Shown: positions 2,682-10,525 of the stretch, piece by piece
Layout: every line of letters begins with the position of its first letter
Position numbering within the stretch: the first letter of the stretch is position 1
From: Tannerella sp.
Lineage (GTDB): Bacteria > Bacteroidota > Bacteroidia > Bacteroidales > Tannerellaceae
Assembly: GCA_031272655.1 (NCBI GenBank)
Contig: JAISTJ010000019.1
Span: 1 to 10,900 of the forward strand
Reading direction: 5' to 3'
DNA length: 10,900 bases
Position numbers and translations under genes: made by a program
The notes under the pieces: model-generated
The model's database searches: none
Seen by the model: only the letters and a program-made list of their open reading frames with translations
Told to the model about the DNA's origin: nothing

Positions 2682-4088
2682 ATCAATCCCTGTAGCCGCC
2701 GCCCGTCCCGAAGCCATTGCGCGAACGACAAGGCTTGCGCCCGAGACCGCATCGCCGCAAGCAAACACTTTGGCTGCTGATGTGCGGCACAGGCCGTCCA
2801 CGGCGATATTTTTCCGTCCGTCCACGGCGAGCGACAGCTCTTTGATGACCGTATCCTGAACGGGATTAACAAACCCCATGCTAAGGAACACAAGGTCAGC
2901 GTCGAGCGTCTCTTTCCTGCCGGTAAGCTTCATTTCCGGTCGTCCGCCGTCGGTCGGCGTCGTCCATTCCACTTCCTCGACCTCCACCTGACGGACATGG
3001 CCGTCGGTATCGCCTATGAAACGGTTGGTAGTGAGGCTCCAGCGGCGGATGCAGCCTTCTTCGTGGCTGCTGCTCGTCTTGAGTATCTGCGGCCATTGCG
3101 GCCAAGGCGTCGCGGGGTTGAAATCTTCTGGCGGCTTGGGCATGATCTCTATCTGCGTTACGCTACGGGCGCCCTGACGGTTGGCCGTCCCAACGCAGTC
3201 GCTGCCCGTGTCGCCGCCGCCGATTATCAAAACATTCTTTCCTTTTGCGTTAATTCGCTCATTATCAGGTATTTCAATACCTTCCAAAAAGCGGTTTTGC
3301 TGCCCAAGATACTCAAGGGCGAAGTATATGCCTTTAAATTCGCGTCCGGTAGCTTTCAGGTCGCGCGGTTCCTCGCTTCCAATGGCAAGACAAACAGCAT
3401 CGTAATTGTCTGTTAACTCATTGATACTCAAGTCTTTACCTATATGACAACCGGTACGGAACTCTATCCCTCCGGCTTCCATCAGTCTCAGTCGGCGGTC
3501 TATAATCTGCTTGCCGAGTTTGAAGTTCGGAATGCCGAACCGCAACAGGCCGCCCGCCAGTTCATCTTTCTCAAAAACGGTTACCGTGTAACCTTTGCGG
3601 TTAAGCTGGTTTGCAGCTGTCAGACCCGCCGGTCCGCTCCCTACAACAGCCACTTTCAGGCCGTTACGCACAGGGGAGGCCGGTTTGATGAAGCCTTCGC
3701 GAAACGCCGCTTCTATGATCGAAACCTCGTTTTCGCGGATGGTTACAGGCTCGTGTATGCTGAGGTTGAGCACGCAGCTCTTCTCGCACAGCGCCGGACA
3801 GACCCTGCCGGTGAACTCGGGGAAGTCGCATGTCGAGTCAAGGGTATAAAAAGCGTCTTCCCATCGGCCTTTGAACAGCTGATCCTGCCATTCGGGCTGA
3901 CGGTTGCCTATCGGACAAGCCCAGTGGCAGAACGGTACGCCGCAGTCCATACAACGCGACGCCTGTTGGCGACGGTCGCTGCTGTTAAGAGTCTGCTCAA
4001 CTTCACTGAAGTCTTTAACCCTTTCATATACAGGTCTGTAGCCCGCCTCCTGACGTGGCACAGTTAAAAATGCTCTCGGATTTCCCAT
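2628..4088 (-). CDS. gltD: Glutamate synthase small (beta) subunit
   Basis: This 486-residue flavoprotein passes electrons from NAD(P)H through FAD and iron-sulphur clusters to GltB, where glutamate is made. Visible cluster ligands are C46, C49, C54 and C58 (CMDCGVPFCHWAC) and C87, C97, C101 and C105. The FAD-binding Rossmann motif is VVGSGPAG (148-155) and the pyridine-nucleotide motif is IIGGGDTG (288-295). A second FAD contact, VFACGDAVSG, lies at 441-450. The start MGNPRAFL matches the usual MGNP opening of the family. The core ends at about residue 470. The last 16 residues (471-486) are encoded by heptamer repeats rather than by family sequence, so the tail is probably acquired. The start codon touches the heptamer array that fills the gap to gltB, and no Shine-Dalgarno sequence precedes it. 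Confidence 0.97.
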   Translation of the reverse strand: MGNPRAFLTVPRQEAGYRPVYERVKDFSEVEQTLNSSDRRQQASRCMDCGVPFCHWACPIGNRQPEWQDQLFKGRWEDAFYTLDSTCDFPEFTGRVCPALCEKSCVLNLSIHEPVTIRENEVSIIEAAFREGFIKPASPVRNGLKVAVVGSGPAGLTAANQLNRKGYTVTVFEKDELAGGLLRFGIPNFKLGKQIIDRRLRLMEAGGIEFRTGCHIGKDLSINELTDNYDAVCLAIGSEEPRDLKATGREFKGIYFALEYLGQQNRFLEGIEIPDNERINAKGKNVLIIGGGDTGSDCVGTANRQGARSVTQIEIMPKPPEDFNPATPWPQWPQILKTSSSHEEGCIRRWSLTTNRFIGDTDGHVRQVEVEEVEWTTPTDGGRPEMKLTGRKETLDADLVFLSMGFVNPVQDTVIKELSLAVDGRKNIAVDGLCRTSAAKVFACGDAVSGASLVVRAMASGRAAATGIDFELRIKSFRFLILDLRY

Positions 4089-4210
4089 TCTTAATTTTTA
4101 ATTCTTAATTCTGAATTCTTAATTTTTAATTCTTAATTCTTAATTCTGAATTTTTAATTTTTAATTTTTAATTCTTAATTCTTAATTCTTAATTCTTAAT
4201 TCTTAATTCT
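4087..4210. repeat. Heptanucleotide array filling the gltB-gltD gap, 17 full units
   Basis: Seventeen full 7-bp units plus a five-base partial run without interruption. The units are ATTCTTA (11 copies), ATTTTTA (4) and ATTCTGA (2). The first unit overlaps the gltD start codon (4086-4088) and the partial unit overlaps the gltB stop codon (4209-4211), so the whole intercistronic sequence is repeat. On the coding strand the units read TAAGAAT, TAAAAAT and TCAGAAT. The sequence directly before the gltD ATG is AAAAATTAAGA, an A-rich context consistent with Shine-Dalgarno-independent starts in Bacteroidota. No terminator-like hairpin lies in this gap, so read-through transcription is expected. Confidence 0.97.
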
Positions 4211-7200
4211 AATAATCCCGTGTAACCTCCGCAATCCGTTTCGACAGTTTCTCCATCTGTTCTTCCTGAAGCACTTTCTTGTACTCGATAGGAACGACGG
4301 ATATAAACTCCTCTGAATAGCGGTCCCAGTTGTCAAGCATATCGCTTGCAAGGCGGCTACCGGTATAGTGATAATGTTTGCGTATCAGCTCGTGCAACTC
4401 TTTGCGGGCTGAGCTTTCTTCTATCAGAGACAGTTCGACCATCTCCATATTGCAGTAGTAGTCGAAGTTACCGCGTTTATTCCATACGTATGCGATACCT
4501 CCGCTCATGCCGGCGGCGAAGTTACGTCCTGTCTCGCCGAGCACTACGACCCGTCCGCCGGTCATATATTCGCAGCAGTGGTCGCCGACGCCTTCAACGA
4601 CGGCTATTGCGCCGCTGTTACGCACGCAGAAACGTTCGCCGGCGCGTCCGTTGATATAGACCTCGCCGCTTGTGGCGCCATACATCAGTGTGTTGCCGAC
4701 AATGATGTTATCCGATGCAACGAATGTGGAACGGCTTGGAGGCGAGATACTTATCCTGCCGCCGCTCAAGCCTTTGCCGAGATAATCGTTGGCATCGCCT
4801 TCCAAACGGAAACTGACGCCCTTGACGAGGAACGCTCCGAAACTCTGTCCTGCAGAGCCTTTGAACTTGATATTCAGTGTGTTATCTGGTAATCCCTCTT
4901 CGCCGTAACGTTTGGCTATGATGCCTGAAACCATCGCTCCGACAGCGCGGTCGGTATTGGAGATGGTGTATTCGAGCGACAGCTCTTCGCCTTTCTCGAT
5001 GCACCCTTCCGCCTGACGGATTATTTCGAGGTCTTTGACATTATCAATCTTATGTATCTGGTCTATAGTCTTCCGCAGTGTCGCATCCCTTCCGGGGAAA
5101 AACAGCAACCGGCTGAAATCCAATAGAGATGTCTTGTTGTCTTCCGTCATTGCGAACGAATGTGAAGCAATCCAGTCAGTTAAACCATTCATACCTATTT
5201 TTTCTGGATTGCTTCGTACCTCGCAATGACGCGGGGAAATTAGATCCGTTCTGCCGACAATCTCGTTGAGCGAGCGGAAACCCATCATTGCGAGATATTC
5301 CCGCACCTCTTGGGCGAGGAAAGTGAAATAATTCACAAGATACTCATATTTTCCCCTGAAACGTTTCCGCAGTTCCGGATCCTGTGTAGCGACGCCCACA
5401 GGGCACGTGTTGATATGGCACTTGCGCATCATAACGCACCCGAGCACAATAAGCGCCGATGTAGCGAATCCGAACTCTTCGGCTCCGAGCAGCGCCATCA
5501 GTATGATGTCCCGGCCGGTCTTTATCTGACCGTCGGTTTGAAGTCTCACTTGCCCGCGCAGGCCGTTCAGCACGAGTGTCTGCTGTGTTTCCGACAGTCC
5601 CATTTCGGGCGCAATGCCTGCATAACGGATAGAGCTTAGCGGGGAAGCGCCCGTGCCGCCGTCCGAACCGGAGATGATAATCCTGTCGGCTTTGGCTTTA
5701 GCTACCCCCGCAGCAATCGTTCCTACGCCCGTCTCGGCTACAAGCTTGACGCTTATCTCGGCGTCGGGATTGACGTTCTTAAGGTCGAAAATCAGCTGTG
5801 CAAGGTCTTCTATCGAATAAATATCGTGATGTGGCGGCGGGGATATAAGCGAAATACCCGGTATCGAATGGCGGGTTTTAGCTATAATCTTATCCACCTT
5901 GTAGCCGGGCAGCTGGCCGCCTTCGCCGGGCTTGGCGCCCTGCGCTATCTTTATCTGTATCTCGTCGGCGTTGACAAGGTATTCAGCCGTTACGCCGAAG
6001 CGCCCCGACGCTACCTGTTTGATAGCCGACCGCAACGACAGGCCGTCCTCGCGGGGCTTGAACCTGTCTGGGTCTTCGCCGCCTTCACCGGTATTGCTCC
6101 TGCCGTGTATCTTGTTCATAGCCAGCGCAATAGTCTCGTGCGCTTCCTTACTGATAGAGCCGTAACTCATCGCGCCTGTAACAAACCGCTTCATGATAGC
6201 CTCTACCGGCTCAACATCTTCTATCGCTAATGGCTTATCCGCAAGCTTGATGTTCAGCAGGTCGCGCAGGAAGATGGGGGGGCGGGTTGGTTCGCCGTTT
6301 GAAGTTGTTCCGTTTGAGGTTGTCCTTTCTTCCCCAACCTTAACAAGGTTTTGAACCTTGTTAAGGTTTAATGACGGCACCCCCGATGCGAGGGCGGTGT
6401 ATTCCTTGAATTTGGCGTAATTGCCGGTGCGGGTGGCAAGTTGAAGGGCGGCGATTGTTTCGGGGTTCCATGCGTGGGTCTCGCCGTCTTTACGGTATGA
6501 AAGCAGGCCGTGATTCGGCAATACGCGCAGGGATGGGTCTGTACTCGCCTCAAACAGCCGTCGCGAGTCGTTTGCCACTTCCTCAAGCCCGATACCACCT
6601 ATCCGGCTCTCGACGCCGCCGAAATACCTGTTACACAGCTCCTCGCCGATGCCAACCGATTCAAACAGCTTGGCGCCGCGGTAACTGCGTATAGTGCTGA
6701 TACCCATCTTGCTGATGATTTTAAGTAACCCTTTGCAGATGGCTTTTACATAGTTCTTCTGCGCCTGGTCATAGTCAAGCTGCAGTATCTTCTTTTTCAC
6801 AAGGTCGTCGAGCGCTGCGAACGCCATGTAAGGGTTGAGGGCGCTCGCCCCGTACCCAAGTAGTAATGCTGCGTGCATCACTTCGCGCATCTCGCCCGTC
6901 TCCATTATCAACGCTGTCTGCACCCGTTTCTGGACGGAAATAAGATGGTGATGAACGGCGCTCACAGCTAACAATGACGGAATGGGTGCAAGTCCCCCCG
7001 CATCGCGGTCGCTTAGGATAATGTAGTTAAACCCGTCTGTAACAGACTGTTCCGCTTTACGGCACAACTCCTGAAGAGCCTCTTCCAACCCATAGCATCC
7101 GCGCGTTACATCATATAATATAGGCAGCTTGATACTCCTGAAACCTTTGTACCGGATATTACAAAGTATGTCTAACTGTGTGTTTGTCAGCACCGGATGC

Positions 7201-8882
7201 GGCAGGCGCACCATCTTGCAGTGCGACTCGTTGGGGTGCATTATATCGTTGCCCACAGCCCCGATATACTCTTCGAGGCTCATCACAAGCTCCTCGCGGT
7301 AAGGGTCTATCGGCGGGTTGGTAACCTGCGCAAACTGTTGGCGGAAGTAGTTGAAAAGCAGCTGCGGATGCTTCGAGAGGGCGGCGAGCGGCACATCAAA
7401 TCCCATTGACCCAACAGGCTCGGCGCCGTTAGTCGCCATTGGGATGAGTATCCGTTCGATGTCTTCGCGGGTGTAGTCAAACAGCCGCAGCAGTCTGTCA
7501 AAATTAGGCACGCTGTTGGAAACAGTCCTGCCCGATTTCAGTTTGTCAAGCTCTACTCGGTTCTTAGTCAGCCATTTACGGTAAGGTTGCGCTTGGGCAA
7601 GCTCTTCTTTTATAGCTTCGTCATAAAGTATCTCGCCATTCTCGGTGTCTATCAGCAGGATTTTCCCCGGTTGCAGCCGTCCTTTGGCTTTGACGTCTTC
7701 CGGCGCGACGTCGGCGACGCCCGTCTCGGACGCCAAGATCATCGTGTCGTTCTTTGTTATAAGGTAACGCGCCGGCCGCAAGCCGTTACGGTCGAGCATA
7801 CCGCCTGTGTAGCGGCCGTCGGTGAACAGCAGCGCCGCAGGTCCGTCCCACGGCTCCATAAGTATCGAGTGATACTCATAAAACGCCTTAAGATCCTCAG
7901 AAATAGGATTTTTGTCGTTAAAACTCTCCGGTATAAGCATCGTCATGGCGTGCGGCAGACTCATCCCCGACGCCACAAGAAACTCAAGCACGTTATCCAA
8001 AGAGGCACTGTCGCTCATTCCGGGCTGTATTATCGGGCGAATGTCGTCAATACCTGTCAGCGGGAATTTCAGGACGCCTTCGCGGGCTTCCATCCAACCG
8101 CGGTTGCCGCGTATAGTGTTGATTTCGCCGTTATGTGCAAGCATCCTGAACGGTTGCGCAAGGCTCCATCGGGGGAAGGTGTTAGTGCTGAAGCGGGAGT
8201 GCACAAGCGCCAGACCTGTAGTGAAATACGCGCTCGTAAGGTCGGGAAAATACTCCCGTAGCTGCATCGTTTCCAACATCCCTTTATATACTATTATCTT
8301 CGTCGAAAGCGAGCATATATAAAAATCATCTTTACCCTCAATATCGCTGTTATTCACACGGTTTTCTATTATGCGGCGGAGTATGTAGAGCTTCAGTTCA
8401 AGCGTCTGCTGGTCCTTTCCCCCGGTAACAAAAATCTGCCACACTTCAGGCTCTACTGCTAACGCCTCATCTCCCAAGATTGAGGAGTTGACCGGCACAT
8501 CGCGCACTTTCATCAGTTCAAGTCCTGCCCGTTTCGTTTCATCGCTGATTATATCAAGTATCTCCGATTGTGAAGCTGTATTTTTGGGGAGGAAAACGAT
8601 GCCGGCGCCATACCGTCCTTTTTCGGGGACGGGAATGCCTTGCAGCAGGATGAACTCGTGAGGTATCTGAAGCAGCACGCCTGCGCCGTCGCCGGTCTTG
8701 TTGTCTGCACCCTCTGCCCCCCTGTGGCGCATGTTCTCAAGTACCTTCAGCGCCGTCTCCACTATGCCGTGCGACTTCTCGCCCCTGATATGAGCTATCA
8801 TACCCACGCCACACGAATCATGCTCATTTGACGCACTGTACAAGCTCTCCTGATTGTTTGTTAATTTGTTGTTTTTGAACAT
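4209..8882 (-). CDS. gltB: Glutamate synthase large (alpha) subunit
   Basis: This 1557-residue enzyme makes two glutamates from glutamine and 2-oxoglutarate. A propeptide of about 23 residues precedes Cys24 (HDSCGVG), which becomes the N-terminal nucleophile of the class II glutaminase domain (about 24-430). A central domain follows, then the FMN-binding synthase barrel (about 880-1200, with GSDGGTGASP). The 3Fe-4S ligands are C1149, C1155 and C1160 (CVMMRKCHINTC). A C-terminal beta-helix glutaminase-linked domain completes it (about 1290-1530, GGRISI...GGVVLG-like repeats such as MTGGRVVVLGETG). Two in-frame repeat insertions mark it: residues 839-863 in the linker before the synthase domain, and 1218-1246 before the beta-helix domain. 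Both sit at domain junctions, so the enzyme is probably active. It is the first gene of the operon; a TATCTTTG -7 box lies about 55 bp upstream. Confidence 0.97.
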   Translation of the reverse strand: MFKNNKLTNNQESLYSASNEHDSCGVGMIAHIRGEKSHGIVETALKVLENMRHRGAEGADNKTGDGAGVLLQIPHEFILLQGIPVPEKGRYGAGIVFLPKNTASQSEILDIISDETKRAGLELMKVRDVPVNSSILGDEALAVEPEVWQIFVTGGKDQQTLELKLYILRRIIENRVNNSDIEGKDDFYICSLSTKIIVYKGMLETMQLREYFPDLTSAYFTTGLALVHSRFSTNTFPRWSLAQPFRMLAHNGEINTIRGNRGWMEAREGVLKFPLTGIDDIRPIIQPGMSDSASLDNVLEFLVASGMSLPHAMTMLIPESFNDKNPISEDLKAFYEYHSILMEPWDGPAALLFTDGRYTGGMLDRNGLRPARYLITKNDTMILASETGVADVAPEDVKAKGRLQPGKILLIDTENGEILYDEAIKEELAQAQPYRKWLTKNRVELDKLKSGRTVSNSVPNFDRLLRLFDYTREDIERILIPMATNGAEPVGSMGFDVPLAALSKHPQLLFNYFRQQFAQVTNPPIDPYREELVMSLEEYIGAVGNDIMHPNESHCKMVRLPHPVLTNTQLDILCNIRYKGFRSIKLPILYDVTRGCYGLEEALQELCRKAEQSVTDGFNYIILSDRDAGGLAPIPSLLAVSAVHHHLISVQKRVQTALIMETGEMREVMHAALLLGYGASALNPYMAFAALDDLVKKKILQLDYDQAQKNYVKAICKGLLKIISKMGISTIRSYRGAKLFESVGIGEELCNRYFGGVESRIGGIGLEEVANDSRRLFEASTDPSLRVLPNHGLLSYRKDGETHAWNPETIAALQLATRTGNYAKFKEYTALASGVPSLNLNKVQNLVKVGEERTTSNGTTSNGEPTRPPIFLRDLLNIKLADKPLAIEDVEPVEAIMKRFVTGAMSYGSISKEAHETIALAMNKIHGRSNTGEGGEDPDRFKPREDGLSLRSAIKQVASGRFGVTAEYLVNADEIQIKIAQGAKPGEGGQLPGYKVDKIIAKTRHSIPGISLISPPPHHDIYSIEDLAQLIFDLKNVNPDAEISVKLVAETGVGTIAAGVAKAKADRIIISGSDGGTGASPLSSIRYAGIAPEMGLSETQQTLVLNGLRGQVRLQTDGQIKTGRDIILMALLGAEEFGFATSALIVLGCVMMRKCHINTCPVGVATQDPELRKRFRGKYEYLVNYFTFLAQEVREYLAMMGFRSLNEIVGRTDLISPRHCEVRSNPEKIGMNGLTDWIASHSFAMTEDNKTSLLDFSRLLFFPGRDATLRKTIDQIHKIDNVKDLEIIRQAEGCIEKGEELSLEYTISNTDRAVGAMVSGIIAKRYGEEGLPDNTLNIKFKGSAGQSFGAFLVKGVSFRLEGDANDYLGKGLSGGRISISPPSRSTFVASDNIIVGNTLMYGATSGEVYINGRAGERFCVRNSGAIAVVEGVGDHCCEYMTGGRVVVLGETGRNFAAGMSGGIAYVWNKRGNFDYYCNMEMVELSLIEESSARKELHELIRKHYHYTGSRLASDMLDNWDRYSEEFISVVPIEYKKVLQEEQMEKLSKRIAEVTRDY
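5145..5231 (-). repeat. Palindromic repeat pair inserted in frame in gltB
   Basis: Two inverted arms flank a 28-bp centre. The left arm is 5145-5175 (CGTCATTGCGA...GAAGCAATCCAG) and the right arm is 5204-5231 (CTGGATTGC...GCAATGACG). The arms match the element found as direct copies at 9037-9064 and 9100-9127; the left arm has three extra bases. The total of 87 bp is exactly 29 codons and encodes residues 1218-1246, starting RHCEVRSNP and ending FAMT. The inserted peptide is not part of the glutamate synthase family, to my knowledge of its domains. Confidence 0.9.
6294..6323 (-). repeat. Two tandem 15-bp units in gltB encoding TTSNG twice
   Basis: On the coding strand ACAACCTCAAACGGA is followed by ACAACTTCAAACGGC, 13 of 15 bases identical. 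They encode residues 854-863, TTSNGTTSNG. The tract is polar and likely a flexible linker. It lies just downstream, in reading direction, of the 33-bp inverted repeat, and is part of the same expanded interdomain segment. Confidence 0.85.
6336..6368. repeat. Perfect 33-bp inverted repeat inside gltB
   Basis: AACCTTAACAAGGTT (6336-6350), the spacer TTG, and AACCTTGTTAAGGTT (6354-6368) form a perfect 15-bp inverted repeat. The 33 bases equal 11 codons in frame (residues 839-849, NLNKVQNLVKV). The arms could form a strong hairpin in DNA or mRNA, although no U-tract follows on the coding strand. It is unrelated in sequence to the palindrome at 5145-5231. Confidence 0.95.
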
Positions 8883-9032: not shown

Positions 9033-9127
9033 TCCCCGTCATTGCGAGGAACGAAGCAATCCAGCCTCTTAATTCTTAATTCTCAATTCTACATGTCCCC
9101 GTCATTGCGAGGAACGAAGCAATCCAG
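9033..9127 (+). repeat. Two direct copies of the dispersed palindrome-type element around heptamers
   Basis: Two identical 32-bp copies (9033-9064 and 9096-9127) begin TCCCCGTCATTGCGAGG and end GAAGCAATCCAG. The 31 bases between them are CCTCTTA, ATTCTTA, ATTCTCA, a partial heptamer and a short unique piece. The same element forms the inverted pair inside gltB, and a fragment lies at 10487-10500. This is a compound of two repeat families in the upstream region of two divergent genes. Confidence 0.95.
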
Positions 9128-10458: not shown

Positions 10459-10500
10459 TGAGAATTGAGAATTGAGAATTAAGAGGCTGGATTGCTTCGC
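10459..10500 (-). repeat. Heptamers joined to a truncated palindrome element
   Basis: Three TGAGAAT units and TAAGAGG (10459-10486) run directly into CTGGATTGCTTCGC (10487-10500), which is the end of the dispersed palindrome element in reverse orientation. Twenty-five bases (10475-10499, minus strand) are identical to 9052-9076, including the join between the two repeat types. Confidence 0.95.
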
Positions 10501-10525
10501 TCTTTTACGTCGTGCCTTCTTGCCT

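Follow-up and report, generated by a model that had tools for sequence, protein, structure and literature searches.

The best-known palindromes lying in frame within genes are those of Rickettsia. In the available parts of two papers, Rickettsia palindromic elements (RPEs) are described as inserted in frame in Rickettsia conorii genes (PMC10969869, PMC3733652). The accessible text of Di Nocera et al. 2013 (PMC3733652) defines a superfamily of CGTC-tagged REPs with families CGTC-1 to CGTC-4, a stem of 8–9 bp and a loop of 4–5 nt (its Table 1); dimers with tags outside and conserved spacers predominate in it, transposase genes are not associated with it, RPE-4 and RPE-6 are classed among its members, the hosts include Bacteroidetes, and intragenic REPs are given for several species. 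A 2024 review, in the portion available, treats a similar process in other prokaryotes as conceivable (PMC10969869). In the open-access literature searched we recognised no paper on the repeat described here or on in-frame repeats in Bacteroidales.

The window, by which we mean the whole stretch of 10,900 nucleotides analysed, is contig C179 of a gut-type Tannerella sp. genome (G000; 2.18 Mb, 72.5% complete, 225 contigs), and thus has the Bacteroidota host that the original prediction had supposed. Its minus strand carries gltB (4209..8882), which its open reading frame, Pfam matches and PDB relatives identify as the glutamate synthase large chain (1557 aa) with two in-frame repeat insertions. 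The Pfam matches are GATase_2, Glu_syn_central, Glu_synthase (residues 872-1203) and GXGXG (1306-1493). At 5145..5231 (minus strand, residues 1218-1246), where an inverted repeat pair had been predicted, we find a full-length member of a dispersed family: an 87-bp palindromic element made of two CGTC-tagged arms, tags outward, with a conserved spacer between them (28-nt arm, 28-nt spacer, 31-nt arm). The first arm (5204..5231, minus strand) has the CGTC tag, a 5-bp stem and a CCA tail; the spacer (5176..5203, minus strand) is common to most full-length copies; and the second arm (5145..5175, plus strand) is inverted with respect to the first. The element is defined by the alignment of its copies and by its hairpin fold, the arms by sequence, alignment and fold, and the spacer by sequence and the alignment of copies. 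As a single strand it forms one long hairpin, both as DNA (−22.2 kcal/mol, z −6.64) and as RNA (−34.5 kcal/mol, z −6.67). Folded alone, the first arm gives a 5-bp stem with a 10-nt loop and the second 5 bp plus an inner 2-bp stem; CGTC is unpaired in these single-arm folds, while in the dimer fold the two tags pair with each other.

As predicted, the gltB frame stays open through both arms, reading RHCEVRSNP...DWIASHSFAMT over residues 1218-1246, and the site falls between the 3Fe-4S ligands and the C-terminal domain: cysteines 1149, 1155 and 1160 (fragment numbering plus 858) precede it, and Glu_synthase and GXGXG stand on either side. Elsewhere in the window, repeat pairs and the arm listing place two intergenic arms of the same family at 9037..9064 and, in direct orientation 63 bp further, at 9100..9127 (both plus strand). 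A partial arm (CTGGATTGCTTC) adjoins a TTAAGA tract at 10487..10502 (minus strand; repeat pairs I1 and I25). Intergenic AATTCTT/AGTTTAT heptamer tracts occupy 119-265, 4079-4211 and 2624-2683, and the C-terminal tail of the gltD ORF (IKSFRFLILDLRY) extends into A/T-rich sequence resembling them.

In a MAFFT alignment, the element was absent from GltB of all 29 relatives. Between RTDLI and an LLDF-type motif, 27 of these have 12 residues, two (L030 and L034) have 13 and the window has 37 (28 relatives were counted by program and L020 by eye). A homologous loop of equal length was rejected, as none of the 29 relatives has such a segment, and the insertion reading stands. The original prediction spoke of exactly 29 added codons: the element itself spans 29 codons, but the protein gains 25 on balance (24 relative to L030 and L034), because eight residues flank the element where relatives have 12 or 13. 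Comparison with the relatives by eye revealed no recognisable target-site duplication. Against PDB 7mfm, the insert stretch can be aligned only by admitting 24 gap columns. An AlphaFold model of residues 859-1557, weak overall (pLDDT 65.7, 26 sequences), puts the insert within its second-longest stretch under pLDDT 50 (fragment residues 362-394), and the best Foldseek matches of this weak model are glutamate synthases at about 25 Å rmsd.

The second in-frame insertion in gltB, of about 31 extra residues (835-865; 6288..6380, minus strand), is likewise absent from the 29 aligned relatives. Inside it, at 6336..6368 (no strand assigned), lies a member of a second palindromic family (AACCTTAACAAGGTT...AACCTTGTTAAGGTT), unrelated to the 87-bp element. 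About 0.05 matches to its 12-mer core would be expected in 426,578 bases, and 23 occur, spread over 14 of 113 stretches; open frames elsewhere in the genome also encode its peptide NLNKVxNLVKV. The core of a third repeat (CGCTTGCGGAAAAA) matches 20 times, in 19 of 113 stretches, and open frames through this repeat give FFPQAKKKKR, FASSFSLAEKM or FFFACGKND (L130, L154, L160, L165, L167).

A protein from a near-identical strain bears on how strongly gltB is constrained. Five of the best 120 of 7979 scored candidates were read, and among these the insert was common only to P0001, a near-identical GltB of 1246 aa that has the same insert plus an extra arm, then a stop inside the element. P0121 (313 aa) is the remainder of the split gltB, with its predicted start at an ATG in the element's last arm. 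Outside the repeat, three residues (853, 1216 and 1249) distinguish the two from the window; both are recorded with a longest contig of 9397, and they probably lie on one contig. To call gltB "essential-type" was therefore too strong, and since a near-identical strain carries it split at this very site, the gene may not be under strong selection. The split gene, with its extra arm and stop, also lends some support to the idea that gltB and the other struck genes are decaying, the inserts being neutral debris and the in-frame cases merely those not yet broken. The genome-wide data below make this unlikely.

In G000, the exact 13-mer arm CGTCATTGCGAGG occurs 149 times (85 forward, 64 reverse) and its reversed control not once, and 18 other sites align with 77 or more bases of the element at 83–95% identity, with the same spacer in most. 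Together these counts exclude a chance origin. Two arm patterns (the 149 CGTCATTGCGAGG copies and 80 GTCATTGCGAAC) were used to collect 112 stretches around arms, which with the window yielded 229 arms in 140 clusters. Open frames of at least 110 aa span 75 of the clusters. All 54 distinct ORFs of at least 180 aa were scanned with Pfam, and six had no match (L075:1837, L086, L154:4312, L165, L176 and L178). By hand tabulation, twenty-seven of the 140 clusters, in 26 ORFs, lie inside one Pfam match (15) or between two matches of one open frame (12). The former are in peptidase C26, GH106, PPDK_N, ABC2_membrane_3, Mur ligase, RibD_C, aconitase family, ATP synthase gamma, 2-hydroxyacid dehydrogenase, VTC, chorismate synthase, EPSP synthase, CLC channel, CTP_transf_1 and ABC-F; the latter are in A2M, PurL-type, Fe-S protein, Lnb, GH106/GH2, RimM, radical SAM, arabinofuranosidase, D-Ala ligase, U32 peptidase, ABC-F again and GltB. 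Gene names beyond the Pfam names are our own reading. Stray repeat-encoded peptides would thus apparently sit in dozens of ordinary enzymes of this genome.

The PPDK_N-domain ORF (L082:3201-6431, 1077 aa) has three separate in-frame arm clusters. Further real-looking cases were left out of the 27, among them a leucyl-tRNA synthetase-like ORF (LeuRS, L127) with an RHCEVRSNP insert plus LTPNPSPKERG...GEGRGEV, which may be another repeat-encoded peptide.

These 27 clusters weigh on two of the alternatives. They include housekeeping genes (AroC, Ddl, AtpG, CdsA-type, RimM and EPSP synthase), which does not fit decay. An assembly artefact joining repeats within genes might be suspected in an assembly as fragmented as this one (225 contigs), and some relatives' contigs do end in the repeat (L333). 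Yet all 27 clusters keep the reading frame, and another database record, perhaps from the same sample, has the gltB site occupied, in a frame-broken form of a near-identical allele; we find an artefact very unlikely.

Protein comparisons delimit the inserts in other enzymes. Residues 271-304 of chorismate synthase are an insertion relative to PDB 7rca (aligned blocks end at 281 and start at 285), residues 149-214 of D-Ala ligase stay unaligned between blocks, and residues 298-330 of the aconitase-family ORF are unaligned. The chorismate synthase insert is missing at the site in 33 of 34 other matching genomes, with gaps of 0–24 nt (read by eye); a separate motif search located the AroC site in 6 of 30 loci, its own included. 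That all relatives lack this insert had to be rejected: in G005, too, an arm occupies the very site in chorismate synthase that is hit in G000. Its contig C16 (L333) ends inside an arm there, in the RHCE frame, and G005:C143:108-132 is an exact arm within a match running through the site. This arm could have been inherited together with that of G000 or could be an independent second strike. G005 may also carry an arm in Mfd (L218).

The shared chorismate synthase site, and the persistence of inserts in important enzymes, could indicate that the peptides are useful, enzyme-tuning modules kept by positive selection. However, the arms of the 27 clusters use five frames (18, 13, 7, 3 and 2 arms), which give unrelated peptides; the genes are unrelated too, and the relatives compared are mostly without inserts. 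We regard a useful role as very unlikely.

A codon model was applied to both flanks of all 140 clusters. Both flanks coded in the same, open frame in 30; the frame differed in 11, was the same with a stop in 4, and lay on opposite strands in 9, while 43 had one coding side, 31 neither, and 12 lay at an edge. With coding on both flanks of one strand, 30 clusters were therefore in frame and open and 15 were not; a stricter threshold with shorter flanks left 10 same-frame open and 2 with differing frame. None of the 15 mismatched clusters was seen splitting a domain, although five (L103, L154, L162, L167 and L171) had at least one flanking ORF without a Pfam match; the other ten separate different genes or two complete family copies (Rnf-Nqr). 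This lack of visibly broken genes again speaks against decay, although the 43 one-flank and 31 no-flank clusters could conceal decayed genes.

The same counts bear on whether the cell takes the inserts out again before the protein is functional, through RNA excision, translational bypassing or protein splicing. The strong RNA hairpin of the element (−34.5 kcal/mol, z −6.67) is what one might expect of such a process, but then the frame would need no keeping, and yet 30 coding-flanked clusters keep it and no clear frame-broken gene appears among the 15 others. Removal therefore strikes us as highly improbable.

The original prediction also suggested that the repeat's frames tolerate insertion into coding DNA. 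This holds only in part: a single consensus arm is open in five of six frames, but the 87-bp element in only two of six, so the notion of an element open in all frames was rejected. Nor did we accept avoidance of the sixth, stop-containing frame (0 of 43 arms) as evidence, since only open ORFs had been selected. The spacing between same-orientation arms is a multiple of three in 9 of 9 intragenic cases versus 28 of 52 elsewhere, in what is a small sample.

How the repeat is distributed outside G000 offers a further comparison. The 25-nt arm pattern was found in 17 of 61 genomes, all of the same genus, with 145 copies in G005, 140 in G006, 116 in G000, 68 in G022 and 42 in G019. With identical requirements throughout (an ORF of 180 aa or more, 50 aa or more on each side, 600 nt of flank), a long ORF spanned 43 of 100 clusters in G000 versus 5 of 46 in five same-genus genomes (G005, G006, G007, G016 and G022; G019 was left out), p = 1.1e-4. 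Because G000 had been sampled with shorter patterns, we recounted only clusters with the 25-nt arm and obtained 29 of 68 versus 5 of 45 (p = 3.2e-4). The relatives' places were hand-picked from those listed, away from contig ends, in 80 stretches, so that contig-end repeats, such as the one in chorismate synthase of G005, were missed. At random positions, ORF occupancy was 0.50–0.55 in the relatives (0.49 in G006) and 0.64 in G000. None of the relatives' five spanned ORFs was bracketed by Pfam matches: three had no match, and in two the arm precedes the matched domains (FecR, MFS).

Records with arms bear the titles Tannerella, Tannerellaceae, Prevotellaceae and uncultured Bacteroidales/Bacteroidia (among at least 115 stretches, 80 of them listed); among the matches listed, arms are also present in Legionella, Rhodopseudomonas, Zoogloeaceae, Methylobacteriaceae and Kaiserbacteria. 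A 33-nt stretch of the full element had zero matches in the genome contigs searched. The 80 listed loci held 90 clusters, 14 of them spanned (13 ORFs); ten of these ORFs were scanned, and by our reading six have an arm inside or between Pfam matches: TRCF/Mfd (L218), FakA (L230), PP2C (L253), TilS (L264), aminotransferase V (L277) and semialdehyde dehydrogenase (L281). Coding insertion is not unique to G000, only denser there within the sample.

Taken together, we put at roughly 80% the probability that a non-autonomous, REPIN/MITE-like inverted dimer of CGTC-tagged arms entered gltB after the G000 lineage had split from the compared relatives. The insert would be translated as 29 residues, presumably a loop within the linker that joins the FMN/3Fe-4S domain to the C-terminal beta-helix. 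Purifying selection would discard insertions that shift the frame or bring a stop and retain those that read through. As the same repeat sits mostly outside long ORFs in the sampled same-genus genomes, something about the G000 lineage matters too; a change in this lineage, towards weaker selection or towards more active mobilisation, could account for the density in genes.

It is tempting to speculate further that in the G000 lineage a REP family otherwise lying mostly between genes turned into a mobile element that inserts into proteins, but we hold this only tentatively and think it doubtful. By hand arithmetic, arms are about 0.15–0.42 times as dense in long ORFs as in other DNA, depending on how strictly genes are counted; this is near the ceiling of 0.28 that would result from the survival of all arm insertions that are in frame and free of stops. 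If the idea is right, most in-frame insertions of about 10–60 residues into enzymes would be close to neutral in this lineage, and a change in mobilisation or selection would have acted within one genus, on several repeat families at once.

G000 is 72.5% complete, and in it we found no mobilising enzyme and no full-length RAYT-type gene flanked by the repeat. The only Y1_Tnp match in G000 (L039, contig C53) is truncated; two arms lie about 1 kb downstream of it, inside an alcohol-dehydrogenase-like ORF (SDCFVPRNDVVHGSSDCFAPRKD), and the other 29 of the 30 Y1_Tnp loci read are without arms. G019 (42 copies) has a good Y1_Tnp match. RAYT-driven spread is not supported: Y1_Tnp is unmatched in repeat-rich G006, G007, G016 and G022 and weak in G005.

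As far as the available parts of PMC3733652 and PMC10969869 go, the kind of insertion is already known, from RPEs and intragenic REPs; the density, the host group and the within-genus contrast are new within the literature searched. This is a dense Bacteroidales case in which same-genus genomes carry the repeat mostly outside genes, a natural contrast useful for learning what admits repeats into proteins and how far enzymes tolerate random internal peptides. It is also a caution: when repeat-encoded peptides such as RHCERSEAI or DCFVPRND turn up in predicted proteins, a gene-calling error need not be the cause.

Among known systems, the element resembles REPINs, RAYT-mobilised in the accessible text of PMC8049555, in being an inverted REP pair with a spacer that forms a hairpin; it differs in its heavy coding insertion and in that a repeat-flanked full-length RAYT-type gene was not found in G000. 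With CGTC-tagged REPs, so far as the available text describes them, it shares the terminal CGTC tag, unpaired in single-arm folds, AT at the first stem positions, intragenic units and a CCA-type tail (GCAAT-CCAG in most of 24 rows, CCGG in L049, L050, L052 and L054). Full-length copies here are head-to-head dimers with a conserved spacer, but by the criterion applied such a dimer is present in only 24 of 140 clusters, and arrays of several arms are common. The arm stem of 5 bp is too short, and the loop of 10 nt differs from the published range, so that the repeat falls outside the CGTC-tagged REP definition. RPEs, at about 150 bp in the accessible portion of PMC10969869, are longer than the 87-bp element, which also differs in its Bacteroidales host and in occurring as single arms as well as dimers; the likeness is one of palindromic form and in-frame insertion. 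The parallel with RPEs drawn from gltB extends well beyond it, to 27 in-frame clusters in 26 conserved ORFs: as with RPEs, in what is available of their description, palindromic repeats stand in frame in many unrelated conserved genes and also between genes.
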